A DNA stretch of 20,621 nucleotides from a virus, in IMG/VR virus record IMGVR_UViG_3300042881_003381, positions 1-20,621 of that record. The stretch is one strand, 5' to 3'. Of this stretch, positions 5,375-19,568 are shown piece after piece; the stretch's first letter is position 1, and the number at the start of each line of letters is the position of its first letter. Made by a program: the position numbers and the translations under genes. Under the pieces are notes generated by a model. That model ran no database searches, was not told the DNA's origin, and worked only from the letters and a program-made list of their open reading frames with translations.

Positions 5375-6920
5375 AGAGCGCAGCCAAAAACAAACCCCAT
5401 CTACCGGGCTGAATTTAGATTTCTCCAGGTCTCCAGCGGTCTGGGGGTTCTTGCAGTCTAATGCGTTTGTCCGTGGTCTGATGGGGCCGGTGGGCTCGGG
5501 TAAGAGCTACGCCTGTGCAGCTGAGATAATGATGCGAGCTGTACAGCAAAAGCCCAGCCCCGTGGATGGCATCAGATATACCCGGTTTGTGATCGTGCGT
5601 AACAGCTACCCGGAGCTGAAGACCACCACAATCAAGACCTGGCAAGACCTGTTCCCAGAGAACACCTTTGGCCCGATGCTGTGGACACCGCCGATTACCC
5701 ACCACATACGCCTGCCATCGAGAGAGGGCGCGTCTGGGATCGACTGCGAGGTGATCTTCCTGGCCCTAGACCAGCCAAAGGATGTGCGTAAGCTCCTCTC
5801 CCTTGAGCTCACGGGTGCGTGGGTCAACGAGGCCCGAGAGCTGCCCAAGGCCGTAATCGATGGTCTCACCCACCGGGTTGGCCGCTATCCCACCAAGCGA
5901 GACGGTGGTGCCACCTGGCACGGTATCTGGTTAGATACGAACCCGATGGATGATGACCATTGGTACTTCAGGATGGCCGAGAAAGAAAAGATGACCGGCG
6001 CATATGCGTGGAAGTTTTACAGACAACCAGGCGGGGTGATCGAGGTATCTCCAGGTGACCTACCAGAGAATCCAGAAGCCAACGATCACATCTTCTCTTC
6101 TGGTCGGTGGTGGAAGTTAAATCCGAAAGCAGAAAATATCTCTAACCTACCGCCTGGCTACTACCAGCAAATGCTGCTGGGCAAGAACCTGGATTGGATT
6201 CGGTGCTACGCCGAGGGGCAATACACCTACGTCCAAGAGGGCAAGCCCGTCTGGTCTGAGTACGATGACAACCTGATGAGCGGCGAGGTGGACTACGATC
6301 CAAGCATACCGCTACAGGTTGGCCTAGACTTTGGTCTTACGCCAGCTGCGGTCATAGGTCAGCGGCTCGCTAACGGGCGTTGGATAGTTCTGCATGAGAT
6401 TGTGACTTTTGATATGGGCCTGGAGCGGTTCGGCCAGCAGCTCCTGGCTGAGTTGAATGCGCGGTTTCCAAAGGCGCAGCTCATGGTCTGGGGTGACCCC
6501 GCCGGTATGCAGAGGGACGCGATCTACGAGGTCACCGCTTTTGACCACCTGAGAACCCTGGGGCTGCGAGCTCAACCCACGCCATCTAACGACTTCAAGG
6601 TCAGGCGTGAGGCAGGTGCCGCCCCGATGCAACGTCTCATAAACGGCAAACCTGGATTGATTGTCAATACGCAATGCAAGCTCCTCCGAAAATCGTTAGC
6701 CGGTGGATATCATTTTAAACGGGTATCCGTTGGAGCTGGCCAGGAAAGATTCAGAGATAGCCCAAATAAAAACGAGCACTCCCACGTTGGTGACGCATTC
6801 GGATACCTTCTACTCGGTGGCGGCGAACATAGGCGTATGACCAAGAGTGCATTTGCCCAAAACACACAGATAGCCCAAACGGTGGTCAATGCCGACTTTG
6901 ATGTCTTTACAACTCGCTGA
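5361..6920 (+). CDS. terL: Terminase large subunit (ATPase and nuclease)
   Basis: This is the motor that pumps DNA through the portal and cuts it. The 519-aa protein has a Walker A motif GPVGSGKS at 42-49, a Walker-B-like block ELTGAWVNEARE with Glu157, and the RNase-H-like nuclease acidic residues Asp323 (GLDFG), Asp379 (WGDPAG) and Asp478 (HVGDAFGY). Length and order fit the podovirus TerL group. It overlaps the 43-aa membrane gene at its start and the GNAT-like gene at its end. The ribosome site is weak (AAGAGA), suggesting coupling to the upstream reading frame. Confidence 0.95.
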   Translation: MTKTKERSQKQTPSTGLNLDFSRSPAVWGFLQSNAFVRGLMGPVGSGKSYACAAEIMMRAVQQKPSPVDGIRYTRFVIVRNSYPELKTTTIKTWQDLFPENTFGPMLWTPPITHHIRLPSREGASGIDCEVIFLALDQPKDVRKLLSLELTGAWVNEARELPKAVIDGLTHRVGRYPTKRDGGATWHGIWLDTNPMDDDHWYFRMAEKEKMTGAYAWKFYRQPGGVIEVSPGDLPENPEANDHIFSSGRWWKLNPKAENISNLPPGYYQQMLLGKNLDWIRCYAEGQYTYVQEGKPVWSEYDDNLMSGEVDYDPSIPLQVGLDFGLTPAAVIGQRLANGRWIVLHEIVTFDMGLERFGQQLLAELNARFPKAQLMVWGDPAGMQRDAIYEVTAFDHLRTLGLRAQPTPSNDFKVRREAGAAPMQRLINGKPGLIVNTQCKLLRKSLAGGYHFKRVSVGAGQERFRDSPNKNEHSHVGDAFGYLLLGGGEHRRMTKSAFAQNTQIAQTVVNADFDVFTTR

Positions 6921-7386
6921 GAAACTCAACGACAACCGCAGAAGAACGGGCCTGTTCTTTATGCCCTTTCACAAAAACCACGCCGCCAGGATAGATATCA
7001 AATCCGAGGAGGTGCTGGTTGTGGCCAACCGAGAGGAGGCCATCGATGTCTTTGATCAACAGGAACAGATGGGCGCAGCTGTTACCGCTTTTGTCTACAA
7101 CCAGCCAGCAGCTATCTTTGGTTTCGTTTCAATCTGGAAGGGCGTTGCCGAGGCGTGGCTAGTGGCAGATGACGTTATGAGATCAATGCCGGTTACGTTT
7201 ACTAAGAGCGCAAAGCAGGTATTAGATATCTCTGCGATATCTATGGGATTGCATCGAACACAGATAACCGTTAGATCTACGGATACACGGGCGTACAAAT
7301 GGGCATCAGCGGTTGGATTCAAGGAAGAGTGTCTGATGCAAAAGTACGGAACGGATGGCGTAGATTACTTTTTAATGGCGAGGTAA
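6889..7386 (+). CDS. GNAT-acetyltransferase-fold protein, T7 gp13-like candidate
   Basis: The 165-aa protein shows the GNAT order: an N-terminal strand-helix, then GFVSIWKGVAEAWLVADD (central strands), a helix with residues FTKSAKQVLDIS, and a C-terminal TDTRAYKWASAVGFKEE, where R-A-x-K-W-A-x-x-x-G-F-K is the usual acetyl-CoA-domain end. A clear Q/R-x-x-G-x-G/A pyrophosphate loop is not seen, so it may be non-catalytic. T7 internal protein gp13 has this fold, and a GNAT-like gene near terminase and portal is frequent in podoviruses. ATG 6901 is an alternative start; 6889 has GGTGG before it. It overlaps terL by 32 nt. Confidence 0.6.
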   Translation: MPTLMSLQLAEKLNDNRRRTGLFFMPFHKNHAARIDIKSEEVLVVANREEAIDVFDQQEQMGAAVTAFVYNQPAAIFGFVSIWKGVAEAWLVADDVMRSMPVTFTKSAKQVLDISAISMGLHRTQITVRSTDTRAYKWASAVGFKEECLMQKYGTDGVDYFLMAR

Positions 7387-11914: not shown

Positions 11915-12757
11915 ATGGCGATTTCATTATCAAACGCCTTTGTAACCCTCTTTGACGCTGAAGTTAAGCAAGCCTACCAGGGTAAAGCAATGCTGGTTGG
12001 TGCGGTTCGTCAGCGCAGGGGTGTCGAAGGCTCAACTGTAAAATTCCCTAAAGTCGGCAAGGGCGTGGCCACCGTGCGCGTTCCCCAATCCGATGTTAGC
12101 CCATTAAACGTAGCGTTCTCTAACGTCACCTGCACGCTGACTGATTACAATGCCGCTGAGTACAGCGACATCTTCAATCAGGCTAAAGTTAACTTTGACG
12201 AGCGTTCCGAGCTTGTCCAGGTGGTTGGTTCCGCTATTGGCCGCCGTCAAGACCAAATCGTTTTGGATGCACTCGCAGGTTCGAGCACAAGCTTGATCGT
12301 GACCGAAGACGAAGGTGGCACCAACACCGGTCTGAACGTGGCTAAACTGCGTGCTGCTAAGAAATTGCTGGATAAGGGCAACGTCCCAATGGACAACCGC
12401 CACATGATCATCCACGCAAACTCTTTGGCATCGTTGTTAAGCGAGACCTCGGTAACCAGCGCAGATTTCAATACCGTCCGCGCCCTGGTATCTGGTGAGC
12501 TCAACACATTCCTCGGCTTTACTTTCCACACAATCGGTGACCGTACCGAGGGTGGTCTTCCCGTTGCATCGTCTGAGCGCAAGCTGTGGGCTTTCCACCG
12601 TGACGCAATCGGCTATGCAGAGGGTATCGCTCCTCGCACGGAAATCAATTACATCCCTGAGAAGACCAGCTTTTTGGTCAACGCAGTATTCTCAGCCGGT
12701 GCGATTGCCATCGATGCCGAAGGTATTGTCGAAGTCCAAACCACCGATTCGGTATAA
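11915..12757 (+). CDS. Major capsid protein
   Basis: The 280-aa protein builds the icosahedral shell. Position after the scaffold, its own leader, and the sequence support the call: FVTLFDAEVKQAYQGKAMLV at the start, the KFPKVGKG loop, then DYNAAEYSDIFNQAKVNFDE and VQVVGSAIGRRQDQIVLDAL (the long spine helix region), and a C-terminal FSAGAIAIDAEGIVEVQT. It resembles podovirus capsid proteins of the HK97 fold; it is shorter than T7 gp10A (345 aa), so insertion loops are probably lacking. The strong ribosome site and separate leader fit a highly made protein. Confidence 0.88.
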   Translation: MAISLSNAFVTLFDAEVKQAYQGKAMLVGAVRQRRGVEGSTVKFPKVGKGVATVRVPQSDVSPLNVAFSNVTCTLTDYNAAEYSDIFNQAKVNFDERSELVQVVGSAIGRRQDQIVLDALAGSSTSLIVTEDEGGTNTGLNVAKLRAAKKLLDKGNVPMDNRHMIIHANSLASLLSETSVTSADFNTVRALVSGELNTFLGFTFHTIGDRTEGGLPVASSERKLWAFHRDAIGYAEGIAPRTEINYIPEKTSFLVNAVFSAGAIAIDAEGIVEVQTTDSV

Positions 12758-12768
12758 GGAGAACGACA

Positions 12769-13047
12769 ATGGCATTTTCTATTACTGGTTTAAACTCTGT
12801 CAGCCCCAATAAGCGCGGCAATGCACCATCGATCTACGCTTATAAGACAACTGACTCTATGGCCACAGTAAATACCGAGGGCTATTTCAACAGCCTGGCT
12901 GATACCCTAGAAGTTGGGGATCTGATTTACTGTGTAACGTCAACAGGCACAACTGCTGTTGCTACTTTGACCGTAGTTCGCTCCAACGCTTCTGGGGTGG
13001 TTGACGTAGATAACGGCACAACGCTTTCTGCTATTGACAGCGACTAA
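12769..13047 (+). CDS. Putative capsid decoration/cement protein, 92 aa
   Basis: Located 11 nt after the capsid gene with AAGGAGAACGACA before the ATG. The pattern APSIYAYKTTDSMATVNTEG, YFNSLADTLEVGDLIYCV then a Thr/Val-rich C-terminus matches small proteins that follow capsid genes in many phages (Y-x-x-x-D-x-x-A-x-V-x-x-x-G-Y-F-x-x...L-x-V-G-D-x-I). The beta-rich nature and position suggest a cement protein; a receptor or fibre role is less likely. Confidence 0.62.
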   Translation: MAFSITGLNSVSPNKRGNAPSIYAYKTTDSMATVNTEGYFNSLADTLEVGDLIYCVTSTGTTAVATLTVVRSNASGVVDVDNGTTLSAIDSD

Positions 13048-13077
13048 TCAAGAGGGGGTCACGAGCTCCCGATTGTG

Positions 13078-13632
13078 ATGCCGCAGTCTTACGATGTACA
13101 ACACAAGGGGTGTGCCATTATCTGTGGCGCGGCCCCTTGTGTCTTTGAAGACCTAGAAAACGCACTCAAGCTGCGCCCAGGTGCCACCATTGTTGGGGTC
13201 AATAACGCAGCTGCAATAGTTCCCGAGATTGAGCATATCTGGACGCAGCACAACAACTACGCTCAAGAATATAAAACCAAGGCTGGCAGGCCAATAAAGG
13301 TTCACGCCAGGGCAGGCATCATGGGAAATGATGTGGACTACTGGTGGAGTAGCATGGTTGGCATGAAGGGGTCGAGTGGGATTGTGGCTGCAATTTGGGC
13401 CAAGGCTATGGGTTTTGATGAGGTAATTATGGCTGGCATCCCGCTAAGTGTTAGCAGCACCGATTACTACGCTCAGTACCCGGACAGCAAACCGGACAGG
13501 GTATTTGCGCCCACCAATAATATTGAGCATTGGCAGAGGTTTTTGTATATACACAAAGAACACGGACGCATGGATGGTGTAACCTCTCTTAGCGGATATA
13601 CACGCCAAGTTCTAGGAGCCCCGGTTGGATAG
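13078..13632 (+). CDS. DUF115/MptE-like Rossmann-fold enzyme, 184 aa
   Basis: CAIICGAAPCVFEDL near the start is a nucleotide-binding-like loop, followed by GATIVGVNNAA and, later, SSGIVAAIWAKAMGFDEVIM and AGIPLS. The combination strand-G-x-x-P, V-G-V-N, then S-G-x-x-A-x-x-x-A-x-x-x-G-F-x-x-x-x-x-x-G resembles DUF115 (6-hydroxymethylpterin kinase MptE-like) and sugar-transferase-type folds; the substrate is not known. ATG 13078 or GTG 13075 can start it, both far from the GAGGGGG upstream. It is the first of three enzymes inside the structural operon. Confidence 0.55.
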   Translation: MPQSYDVQHKGCAIICGAAPCVFEDLENALKLRPGATIVGVNNAAAIVPEIEHIWTQHNNYAQEYKTKAGRPIKVHARAGIMGNDVDYWWSSMVGMKGSSGIVAAIWAKAMGFDEVIMAGIPLSVSSTDYYAQYPDSKPDRVFAPTNNIEHWQRFLYIHKEHGRMDGVTSLSGYTRQVLGAPVG

Positions 13633-14059
13633 GTACGCAACGCATCTTGAGCCGCTAGTCAAAGCGGCCCTACAAGCCAAGACCGGAATTCTTGAGCTTG
13701 GCTGCGGAAACTACTCGACACCAATTTTGCAAGAGATATCTAAATTTAAAGGTATACCTTTCCTGTGCCAGGCTAGCGATGTAGAGTGGGCAAAGCAATT
13801 TGACGAAGTACAGATTGTGAGCTGGCCAACGTGGACACCACCGGAAGGCAAGTGGGACATGGCATTTCTTGATAGCGAAGAGCCAACCAAGGACAGAATC
13901 AAGAAATTGCCTGCGTTATGTGAGATATCTGATGTTGTGGTTATGCATGACGCAGATGCGGCAATGGCTCAAGAAAACTTTGATAAATACATTAGCGTAT
14001 TTACAGAAGTTATTTGGTATCGCAAACACAGACCCTGGACGATAATTCTGTATGCCTGA
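13625..14059 (+). CDS. Class I SAM-methyltransferase-like protein, 144 aa, TTG start
   Basis: The motif ILELGCGNYSTPIL (Glu24 to Ser31) is the glycine-rich SAM loop; WDMAFLDSEEPTKDR (77-91) and VVVMHDAD with His108-Asp109 follow in the order of a family of phage methyltransferase-like proteins. TTG at 13625 is taken as start because AGGAG lies 6 nt upstream, while no ATG precedes the SAM loop. It overlaps the previous stop by 8 nt and the next start by 8 nt. The target (DNA, sugar, protein) is unknown. Confidence 0.62.
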   Translation: MDRYATHLEPLVKAALQAKTGILELGCGNYSTPILQEISKFKGIPFLCQASDVEWAKQFDEVQIVSWPTWTPPEGKWDMAFLDSEEPTKDRIKKLPALCEISDVVVMHDADAAMAQENFDKYISVFTEVIWYRKHRPWTIILYA

Positions 14060-14717
14060 CATAACCGTTGTCTGCGTTCTCAAATCTGGCCGCTTTAGCC
14101 AATCAGCTGGCAAAGAACCCTACACCCCAGCCGATGTGGAAAGATTGATGAATATGGTTGCCAAGAATCTTGGAGACCATAGGTTTGTCTGTTTCTCGGA
14201 TGTAGATGTACCCTGCGAGCGGATACCGCTCAAACACGGGTGGCCAGGTTGGTGGTCTAAGATCGAGCTCTTCTCTTGGGTGTTTGATGGCCCGGTGCTT
14301 TACTTTGACCTGGATACCGTTATCTGTGGTGACCTGACCGAGCTGGCCGAGTACCCACATAAATTCACGATGCTCAAAGACCTGGGCAAGCGCGATACCC
14401 CGGCAAGTGGAATGATGGCCTGGAACGGGGACTATTCGCACATTTACCTGACATTTAGGTCAGACCCATCGTTTTACATGACTATGTACTCTGGGAGCCT
14501 GAATCTTGGAGATCAGGCATTTATTGCTAAGAATCAGAAGCCAGACTGCTTGTGGCAACAGATATTCCCCAATAGAATCTTCTCATACAAATTTCATCTT
14601 CTTGGCAAGCAAAAACCAGACGAGGCAAAAGTAGTTTGTTTTCATGGCGAGCCAAAGGGTTCTGGTTCAAGTGGCTGGGTAAGAGATATATGGAGTAATG
14701 CAAATGGCAGCAGGTGA
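14052..14717 (+). CDS. GT8-like glycosyltransferase, 221 aa
   Basis: DITVVCVLKSG, then FVCFSDVDV, WWSKIELFSW and YFDLDTVICGDL with the metal-binding DxD at Asp86-Asp88 form the layout of retaining GT-A sugar transferases (GT8-like); GLGDQAF-like SLNLGDQAFI and a C-terminal CFHGEPKG (His probably a metal ligand) complete it. It would move a sugar from a nucleotide sugar to an unknown acceptor. It overlaps the methyltransferase-like gene and the tail tubular gene, so it is part of the late operon. Confidence 0.75.
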   Translation: MPDITVVCVLKSGRFSQSAGKEPYTPADVERLMNMVAKNLGDHRFVCFSDVDVPCERIPLKHGWPGWWSKIELFSWVFDGPVLYFDLDTVICGDLTELAEYPHKFTMLKDLGKRDTPASGMMAWNGDYSHIYLTFRSDPSFYMTMYSGSLNLGDQAFIAKNQKPDCLWQQIFPNRIFSYKFHLLGKQKPDEAKVVCFHGEPKGSGSSGWVRDIWSNANGSR

Positions 14718-15318
14718 TTCCGCACTATCGATTTGTTCAGACGCTCTCTTGATGCTGGGTGCCAAGGCTATATCATCGTTTAACGAGGGAACCAACGCAG
14801 CCAACGTATGTGACCGGCTATACCCAGACATCAAGAACCAGGCACTTCTGAATTACCCTTGGTCTTTTGTTTATAAAAAGATCCAGCTATCTCAACTAAT
14901 CACTACGCCAACCACAGAATACAGGTACGAATATCAACTGCCAGGTGATCGGATTGGGCCTCCCAGGCAGATATTCGTTACCAACGCTATTGGTGCCAGA
15001 CCGATTAAAGCCTACCGGATATTCCAAGACAAGCTGCTCACCAACGAGACCACCATCTACGCTGACTATCCATATGCCGTCCAAGAGTACGAGATGCCGG
15101 TTTACTTTGTGCAGCTGCTCAAGTACATGATGGCCTGGCATCTATCTCTGCCAATTACCGACCAAATCGACAAGACCCAATACTGGCAGCAGATTGCTAT
15201 TGGAGCTGCGTCAGAAAATGGCCGGGGTGGTTATATGCGTACCGCCACCACCATCGATGGCCAGGGCCAGCCAATCTCTGTCATTGAAGATTACAGCTTG
15301 ATCGATGTGAGGAACTGA
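14704..15318 (+). CDS. Tail tubular protein A, T7 gp11-like (head-tail adaptor)
   Basis: The 204-aa protein begins MAAGDSALSICSDALLMLGA, the typical start of podovirus gp11-like adaptors, and contains YPDIKNQALLNYPWSFVYKK and ADYPYAVQEYEMP. It forms the ring between portal and nozzle; T7 gp11 is 196 aa. ATG 14704 is preferred over 14698 because GGAG then lies at 8 nt. It overlaps the glycosyltransferase gene by 14 nt and the next gene by TGATG. Confidence 0.88.
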   Translation: MAAGDSALSICSDALLMLGAKAISSFNEGTNAANVCDRLYPDIKNQALLNYPWSFVYKKIQLSQLITTPTTEYRYEYQLPGDRIGPPRQIFVTNAIGARPIKAYRIFQDKLLTNETTIYADYPYAVQEYEMPVYFVQLLKYMMAWHLSLPITDQIDKTQYWQQIAIGAASENGRGGYMRTATTIDGQGQPISVIEDYSLIDVRN

Positions 15319-17319: not shown

Positions 17320-17913
17320 ATGAGCAGATTTAATATCAACGTCCACGGGCTACCGCTTGGTGACCCACACAACCCACCTGGATCAAGCAGGGTTCAGAAC
17401 GATCCATTTACTGCCGCAGCTGTGGCCGCATCTGTTATGTCTGCTTACAGCTCATACCAGCAGGGCCAGATCCAGGGCAAGCAGCTAGAGCTCAAGGGAA
17501 GGCTAGAGCAAACCCAGTATGACCGCCGGGCGATTCAGTATCAGCAGAAAGCCAACCAGGTTTTAGAGCGGCTTAAGAAGACTAACGCCAACCTAACGGC
17601 AAAAGGATTTGCTGGTGGTGTTGATTCGTTTAGCGGGTCAACAGATATTGTTCGGGCATCTAATGAAACATCTGCCGGGCGAGAGTTCAAGATTTATCTA
17701 GATGACGCAGATGCAGCAATCCGAGCTGGAGACATTGCCTTGGCATCTAATCTAGCTGCGGCCCAACAAGCAAAAACGTCTGGCAAGTTAGATGCAGCTA
17801 CCAAGCTTTTGATGGCCGGTGCAACCGCAGGCAAGGGCGGTGGATTTGATCGAACAAGTTATAACTGGCTTGTTCCAGCACCAGTTGAAACCAGAATGGT
17901 TGTACCAACATAA
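17320..17913 (+). CDS. Internal virion protein, T7 gp14-like
   Basis: The 197-aa protein has a hydrophobic Ala/Val/Ser stretch (AAAVAASVMSAYSSYQQGQ), a long Gln/Arg-rich helix (RAIQYQQKANQVLERLKK), GFAGGVDSFSGSTDIVRASN and a second helix (IALASNLAAAQQAKTSG). These features and size (T7 gp14 is 196 aa) fit the ejected core protein that inserts into the outer membrane. It starts 1 nt after the nozzle stop and overlaps the next start (TAATG). Confidence 0.75.
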   Translation: MSRFNINVHGLPLGDPHNPPGSSRVQNDPFTAAAVAASVMSAYSSYQQGQIQGKQLELKGRLEQTQYDRRAIQYQQKANQVLERLKKTNANLTAKGFAGGVDSFSGSTDIVRASNETSAGREFKIYLDDADAAIRAGDIALASNLAAAQQAKTSGKLDAATKLLMAGATAGKGGGFDRTSYNWLVPAPVETRMVVPT

Positions 17914-19568
17914 TGGCACGCATACCTAGATACCAAGAATCAGGGGTCATCTCAGCGGATGTTCCTAGCATGAGCTTTCCGATGGCCAGTACGTCACAGG
18001 CTGTTGGGAAGTCACTAGACCAGCTTATGCAGTTTGCGTTTGGCGAAGTTAAGGAACGCAAAGACAAAGAAGACAAAATCATTGCTGCCCAAATGCGATC
18101 AGAGCTAGAGCTTGAAGTCGCAAAGAAAGTTAATGATTTAGACACCTTAGTTTCTACCGGCCAACTTACAGATGCCCGTGAGCTACAAAGTGAAATTCGA
18201 TCTCTAGAATCATTTGCCCGGCCATTGTTTGATAGAGACGTTACCCAGGCTGCTGGTTTAATTCAATCGATTACATCTTCTGGAAAAGCATTAATGGCCA
18301 AGAGCACAGACATGATGCTCAAGAATTATAGTGCCGCCAGAAACGTAATAACAGACGATGCAATCAGGCAAAACACAAAACTAATTGAACGGCTATGGGA
18401 AACAACAGCATCATATGAAGATCCCGCAATGGGAGAGCAAGCAAGAACAACTAGAAACGTAGAAGAGCAATCTATTTTTTCAAAGATGTTTAATGTTGCA
18501 AGAATGAATCCAGGTTCATCTGATGAAAAAATGACGCAGTTTTTAAAATCTGTAGAAGCAGCAAAAATTAATGTTATTTCTAAATACTTAAAAGATGAGC
18601 TATCCCAGGGCAACATGACAATCCTTAACGCAAAGATGGCCGCTGGGGATTATGGCAAATACACCAGGGATGTTATGTCTTTCACAGAGGAACAAAAGTC
18701 AGCTATCCGCACAGCAATCAAAAAACGATTTGTTGAATCTACAGATATTCTAAAAGCCGAAGCAGAGCTTAAAAAATCTGGAGATGAGACAGAAGCTCGC
18801 GCACTAATCGCTGATTACTTTAGTTCCCCAAAACCAGCAACCCTAGAAAAGTTGCGAGCCATTGCTATTCGTTCTGGTGCCGTCTCGCCAGAATATGTAG
18901 CCGAGTTGCCAAACAAGGTTTCTAGCGCAGAGCCAAGAAACGTAATGGGCGAGATGATGCTTAAGGATGAAATTCAAAAAGGTTTAATTACTAGCCTAGC
19001 TGATTTTCAAAATCGAGGTCGGTCACTCGGAGTCGGGATTCGCAGGCTTTCTGAATTGCAAGATAACTGGTACTCCGGTAATCGCTCAGTTGAGAATGAC
19101 ATTGAAGGAATTGCCAGGGGTCAAGCAAGACTTGTTCCTGGGCAAACTAACATTAGTCAACGCCAACAACAGGACTACTATAAATTTATTTCAAATGTTG
19201 AAGACGGATTTCAACAGGAAACGCAAGCGTGGAAAGATGGGGGCTCAAAAGGCCCAGCACCATCTAAAAGAGATATTGCAAATAAACTTGTTGTTAAGCG
19301 CAGGGAAAGTATTCAGTCTAGGAAAATTGACAATATTACGGAAAGCTTGATCTCTTCCTACGGGCCACAAGGAACGGTTAAAAAAAGCAACATTGATTTT
19401 AATAACATTGAAATGCAATACAGCAAAGACGGGGAAGCTGTTGGTTTATCTTCAGACGTAAAAGCAGCGTTGCGCAGAGATCGTTTTAGCGATGATCAGA
19501 TTGATGACATTGAACAAAAAATGATTGGACTTGATAAACAACGAAAAGAATTGAGCACTATTAGATGA
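17913..19568 (+). CDS. Internal virion protein, T7 gp15-like candidate
   Basis: The 551-aa protein is highly helical: IPRYQESGVISADVPSMSFP at the N-terminus, then long charged helices to the end, with many Lys/Glu. Its place between the gp14-like gene and a long open gene is that of T7 gp15 (747 aa), part of the ejected periplasmic tunnel. No enzymatic motif was seen. From about 18300 the gene is AT-rich (18541-18600 about 23% GC by hand count), unlike the GC-balanced upstream genes. Family membership rests mainly on order and helical character. Confidence 0.6.
   Translation: MARIPRYQESGVISADVPSMSFPMASTSQAVGKSLDQLMQFAFGEVKERKDKEDKIIAAQMRSELELEVAKKVNDLDTLVSTGQLTDARELQSEIRSLESFARPLFDRDVTQAAGLIQSITSSGKALMAKSTDMMLKNYSAARNVITDDAIRQNTKLIERLWETTASYEDPAMGEQARTTRNVEEQSIFSKMFNVARMNPGSSDEKMTQFLKSVEAAKINVISKYLKDELSQGNMTILNAKMAAGDYGKYTRDVMSFTEEQKSAIRTAIKKRFVESTDILKAEAELKKSGDETEARALIADYFSSPKPATLEKLRAIAIRSGAVSPEYVAELPNKVSSAEPRNVMGEMMLKDEIQKGLITSLADFQNRGRSLGVGIRRLSELQDNWYSGNRSVENDIEGIARGQARLVPGQTNISQRQQQDYYKFISNVEDGFQQETQAWKDGGSKGPAPSKRDIANKLVVKRRESIQSRKIDNITESLISSYGPQGTVKKSNIDFNNIEMQYSKDGEAVGLSSDVKAALRRDRFSDDQIDDIEQKMIGLDKQRKELSTIR

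Follow-up and report, generated by a model that had tools for sequence, protein, structure and literature searches.

Gene content of the window and predicted activities of A, B, and C

The DNA analyzed here, which we call the window, is a whole virus record of 20,621 bases that carries podovirus-type packaging and structural genes. Genes for the portal (PF12236), capsid (PF19821), tail tubular protein A, nozzle, and internal virion protein were assigned by family match, and those for the terminase and scaffold from their position and a reading of the open reading frames (ORFs). The major capsid protein gene (11915–12757, plus strand; PF19821, 5e-73; phrog_3437) is followed by a small gene (12769–13047, plus strand; phrog_18004, 1.9e-19) that is homologous to gp30 of the Methylophilales phage MEP301. 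Ser and Thr together make up 27% of the small protein, whose position suggests a putative decoration protein. In relatives of the window, this small gene is kept ahead of gene A, described next.

Three overlapping plus-strand ORFs fill positions 13078–14717, just as the preliminary description placed them, between the small head gene and the gene for tail tubular protein A (14698–15318, plus strand; phrog_394, 1.1e-28), downstream of which lies the nozzle gene (phrog_376). These are gene A (13078–13632), gene B (13625–14059, TTG start), and gene C (14052–14717, ATG start). Translation of A may begin at a GTG at 13075 or at the ATG at 13078, the start chosen earlier. A and B overlap by 8 nt, as do B and C; a Shine-Dalgarno-like TAGGAG stands upstream of B within the 3′ end of A, and C overlaps the start of the tail tubular A gene (14698 or 14704) by 14–20 nt. 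A, B, and C are real genes under purifying selection, since 2000 Markov simulations of the stretch never produced three frames staying open for 144 codons or more, and dN/dS against relatives, wherever dS could be estimated, was well below 1 (0.01–0.33). The ratios for C resemble those of its structural neighbors, and those for A are somewhat higher.

Elsewhere in the window, a minus-strand ORF at the left end (945–1601) resembles serine recombinases (resolvases), and MEP301 is also reported to have a resolvase-domain protein. An ORF at 6889–7386 overlaps the end of the terminase gene and has the same position as MEP301 gp44, a “putative acetyltransferase”. The second internal-virion-type ORF (17913–19568) shows ~35–40% identity in several relatives in which capsid and tail are >95% identical, which suggests another fast-changing or exchanged gene.

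The 184-residue A protein is best called a member of the GT42/Maf/MptE superfamily on the overall fold of its model, and is a probable glycosyltransferase. A sequence search against solved structures (PDB) gave no match, and the alignment to phrog_4603, annotated as “alpha-2,3-sialyltransferase”, had an E value of 0.0015. The predicted structure (pLDDT 94.3) matched the flagellin glycosyltransferase Maf (5mu5), CstII, and CstI with VIA Z scores of 11.7, 11.6, and 11.5, respectively, over 167–179 residues; SteA scored 10.8 and an MptE-type HPPK 10.1, and unrelated entries scored 7.5 or less. A thus has a predicted fold in common with Maf and with the GT42 sialyltransferases CstI and CstII at an identity of just 11–13%. 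The earlier label “DUF115/MptE-like” stands as far as the fold is concerned, and 10 of 27 A homologs match PF01973 (MptE-like/DUF115) at E ≤ 0.01 (best 1.3e-4). A itself, however, scores 14 bits against this family (E 0.045), under the Pfam curated cut-off of 34.6 bits, and DUF115/MptE proper was rejected as its identity on that ground. The aspartate of a GxD motif that is kept in other A-type proteins (VGYD in PmgO of phage P1 and LGFD in the L119 fusion protein described below) is replaced in the window family (AGIP or AGIG).

B, of 144 residues, matched no family in Pfam, PHROG, or NCBIfam and, by sequence, no solved structure. Its predicted structure (pLDDT 91.5) nevertheless bears out the proposal of a methyltransferase: the top Foldseek matches are all methyltransferases, the PDB matches are all class I methyltransferases, with a VIA Z of 14.4 to COMT over 140 residues, and E24, G26, and G28 of motif I (E-x-G-x-G) are invariant among seven diverse homologs. 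By this modeled fold and motif I, B is a compact, minimal class I SAM-dependent methyltransferase. For C, the proposed assignment as a GT8-type glycosyltransferase is supported by its match to phrog_1962 (8e-41) and by a profile search of the PDB, which found the Skp1 galactosyltransferase Gat1 (6mw5; E 3.7e-4) and glycogenin (0.14), both GT8 enzymes to which C is remotely related. The DLD (DxD) motif is kept, D86 being nearly invariant and D88 invariant in 14 diverse homologs, in all of which G199 of a C-terminal HG motif (mostly FHGxP, in a few GG or SG) is also retained.

None of the three proteins has a hydrophobic 19-residue membrane segment (maximum KD 1.31). Tblastn against 50,697 phage records gave no match for A or B and distant matches only for C. 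Scans of species genomes with A and B patterns, which are limited by the shortness of the patterns, produced pattern matches and no confirmed relative.

An exchange slot downstream of A

The relatives of the window are viral contigs, and 55 distinct sequences were used to count what follows A. The order is small post-capsid gene, A, a slot of variable content, and tail tubular protein A, with A fixed. The slot is empty in 13 sequences and holds C alone in 27 (in one of these, L100, C is followed by a GT2-like gene), B and C in four, and methyltransferases of other families in 11. The latter are of the Methyltransf_11 or Methyltransf_23 kind and unrelated to B, so that methyltransferases of three families replace each other at this place. 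Comparison of the junctions puts the 5′ boundary at 13611–13632 (plus strand), comprising TAGGAG and the A stop that overlaps the next start, and the 3′ boundary at the start of the tail tubular A gene, which overlaps the last slot gene. Most junctions are tight, with a GGAG-like sequence at the end of A and an overlap of 4 to 8 bases between A and the next start. The reading frames of many slot genes extend across the opening codons of the tail gene, which gives their products a C terminus of -GSR or similar.

The three genes had been described as a three-enzyme cassette. Their co-occurrence is real, but they do not form a fixed trio; as judged from the sequences of the relatives, the cassette is a core A with a usual C and an optional, exchangeable methyltransferase. 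MEP301, the nearest cultured relative by capsid (75% identical), is without the cassette.

Mean identity among the relatives is 56% for A and 56% for the small head gene, the fastest-diverging, and 81% for the capsid protein. The small head protein and A diverge in a correlated manner, with a partial r of 0.57 once capsid and tail genes are allowed for, but we dropped this correlation as evidence of a substrate because adjacency explains it equally well. In some relatives (L053, 2821–3853, and L075, 2624–3880), ~1 kb or more separates the scaffold gene from the capsid gene, compared with ~240 bases in others. The difference points to a possible additional insertion slot.

Related enzymes in other phages

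A search with B reached phages that lack the capsid family of the window. In L108 and L116 one gene separates the capsid gene from B, which is followed by a gene for a 467-residue fusion with C at its start and an MptE-like domain (3.7e-16) at its end; A aligned with the MptE domain of L108 over 38 columns only. L119 encodes, downstream of a PF05065 capsid gene, a single 586-residue protein with B (hhalign 1.5e-23), C (6.9e-30), and A-type (phrog_4603, 2.5e-31) domains, the C domain lying 651 bases from the capsid gene. The third domain was named by phrog_4603; A itself did not match the triple fusion when the two were compared directly by hhalign. In another viral contig, L117 (4430–7058), a B–C pair stands just ahead of terminase-like and portal-like genes and is preceded by a second methyltransferase gene and an ORF of unknown kind. 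In L120 (1436–5060), glycosyltransferase genes of the GT1 and GT2 kinds form a run upstream of a distant B homolog (27% identical).

A wide scan of IMG/VR with C yielded at least 502 confirmed loci. For 44 records chosen by similarity to C, which comprise ~22 C clusters at 60% identity and whose figures describe that branch, a phrog_4603 gene is present in 33, and in 30 of them no more than 1.5 kb separates it from C. An HK97-type (PF05065) capsid gene is present in 27 records, and in 23 of these C follows it at a distance of up to 5 kb; among records >20 kb the count is 8 of 10, compared with 1.5 expected. Ten records have the tight order capsid, A-type, C, the last two genes sharing 1 to 4 bases. 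The neighboring families are head protein, protease, and portal genes upstream and head–tail adaptor and head closure genes downstream. Thus, the search for the same trio that the preliminary description had proposed as a check found it next to the capsid gene in unrelated phages, and the A and C pair widely so. C also occurs in other settings: it does not adjoin the capsid gene in a 137-kb record (L034), stands upstream of the terminase genes in Citrobacter phage phiNP, and lies near tail-fibre genes in Chlobot. Small ORFs between the capsid and A-type genes of the siphovirus records are dissimilar and mostly not Ser/Thr-rich, and no common small substrate was seen among them.

Several known phages have comparable gene sets. 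Tetraselmis viridis virus S20 (TVGG_00049 to TVGG_00041) has two A-type genes, a methyltransferase gene, and a C-type gene directly before the head closure gene Hc1. This cluster is larger than that of the window, with further genes, and its methyltransferase belongs not to the B family but to phrog_24759, the family of an alternative slot gene in the relative L085. In P1, a row of genes encodes PmgO (phrog_4603, 4.4e-74), PmgP (weakly of the same kind), Ppp, and PmgQ (phrog_1962, 2e-127). The A-type PmgO and C-type PmgQ are close together, as in the window cassette; unlike in the window, there is no methyltransferase, a phosphatase gene stands between the pair, and the capsid gene does not adjoin. 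The genes pmgO, pmgP, pmgQ, and ppp are listed as nonessential, the three pmg genes with a “putative morphogenetic function” (PMC10695390). A sequence search with PmgO against the PDB gave nothing useful. Of 5,426 complete E. coli genomes, 751 contain a match to the P1 stretch, and almost every such place is on a plasmid, as expected because P1-like prophages are plasmids.

Mycobacteriophage-type precedents resemble the window in function and not in family. The structural operon of Corndog includes, between portal and protease, genes for an O-methyltransferase and for glycosyltransferases (PMC4351075), and a further report, which cites Freeman 2023, describes glycosylation of its virion proteins and capsid (PMC12363180). 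The overlapping O-methyltransferase and glycosyltransferase genes of Corndog (gp35–gp38) and of its cluster O relative Firecracker (gp33–gp36), through which the comparison was made, are like the window genes in lying within the structural operon. They precede the capsid gene, however, whereas the window genes follow it, and their products belong to other families (phrog_6608, 4447, 1721, and 854) and did not match the A, B, and C profiles. A gtr-type seroconversion operon was considered for the window and rejected, as A, B, and C have no membrane segments and are not accompanied by a further gene (flippase).

Proposed modification of the head and alternative readings

The reading that we favor, by a modest measure, is that the cassette forms a module, expressed late, by which the virion, most likely a head protein, is glycosylated and methylated. 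A, as a soluble Maf/GT42-like glycosyltransferase, would put the first sugar on this protein, for which the capsid protein and the 12769–13047 protein are the candidates; C, as a GT8 enzyme, would use a nucleotide-sugar to extend it; and B, where present, would O-methylate the sugar. Through the exchange slot, related phages could carry a bare, extended, or differently methylated sugar. We infer the enzymatic activities, the order of the reactions, the head as substrate, and a benefit that may consist of shielding or altered adsorption. The fusion and repeated pairing of the A, B, and C domains show that they act together, the position near the capsid gene in unrelated phages favors the head as target, and proteins devoid of membrane segments would be suited to a substrate in the cytoplasm. 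A cytoplasmic protein glycosyltransferase of this sort has a precedent in Maf, which acts on a surface protein that self-assembles. The preliminary description had envisaged a sugar pathway of the phage's own, acting on virion proteins or on host surface sugars; a joint sugar and methyl pathway is retained here and tied to the head, with the virion favored by the linkage to capsid genes.

Modification of host cell-surface sugars late in infection, which could serve receptor masking, superinfection exclusion, or the prevention of progeny binding to debris, is the main rival, and we consider it rather unlikely. The place in the operon would then signify late expression only, which any late position would give, so that the closeness to capsid genes in unrelated phages is unexpected. 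Envelope sugars are common substrates of glycosyltransferases and methyltransferases, and lipooligosaccharide is the substrate of those GT42 enzymes whose structures have been solved. The GT1 and GT2 genes around the distant B homolog in L120, the tail-fibre genes near C in Chlobot, and the fast divergence of A, which fits adaptation to varying host sugars, point the same way. A membrane-bound or flippase gene, on the other hand, does not accompany A, B, and C, and relatives of A or B were not confirmed in bacterial species genomes within the reach of the short-pattern scans. Some observations sit poorly with modification of the head itself: C in L034 and pmgO and pmgQ in P1 are away from the capsid gene, C takes the other positions noted in phiNP and Chlobot, MEP301 dispenses with the cassette despite its similar capsid, and a common small substrate protein was not found.

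The remaining readings have lower probabilities. It is improbable that the set makes a modified metabolite, with A serving not as a glycosyltransferase but as a pyrophosphokinase of the MptE kind or as some other enzyme of small molecules. The MptE-type HPPK and SteA are nearly as close to A in structure as the glycosyltransferases, and PF01973 is matched by the homologs counted above, but A-type and C-type domains are repeatedly paired and fused in unrelated phages, and the GxD aspartate is replaced in the window family. Still less probable is a slot into which mobile accessory genes insert without their products sharing a pathway; its occupants are varied and it is empty in 13 of the 55 sequences, yet all occupants are glycosyl- or methyltransferases, and A, B, and C domains are fused in unrelated phages. 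The least probable of the readings, and a very improbable one, is that the set puts sugar on the bases of phage DNA. Phage glycosyltransferases that modify DNA are known (reviewed in PMC12619734), but no hydroxymethylase or base-hypermodification gene was noted in the window, an incomplete genome, or in the MEP301 annotation, A is of a protein-type superfamily, and the cassette lies by capsid rather than replication genes.

Under the favored reading of head modification, many environmental phages would carry variable, sometimes methylated, head sugars, which would matter for adsorption, decoy binding, and the recognition of phages. We also put forward, more tentatively, that the phrog_4603 and phrog_1962 pair may constitute a widespread, unnamed system that glycosylates head proteins of tailed phages, in which the Maf/GT42-like A enzyme adds the first sugar to a capsid or decoration protein, interchangeable methyltransferases provide variant caps, and PmgO and PmgQ are included. 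Among phages, a few mycobacteriophages have been shown to have glycosylated virions. While such glycosylation is already known, the enzyme families, the exchange slot, the recurrence beside capsid genes, and the P1 link appear undescribed; a literature search, mostly outside subscription journals, found no description of the A and C pair, the enzyme set, the slot, the capsid-side recurrence, or the P1 link. The module is widespread and lies beside capsid genes in unrelated phages, and its counterpart in P1 makes pmgO and pmgQ directly testable. Within the P1 stretch (L190; NC_005856, 79592–82150), PmgO and PmgP look like the products of two related A-type genes, and the Ser/Thr phosphatase gene ppp, between these and the GT8 gene pmgQ, may represent a second protein-modification theme.
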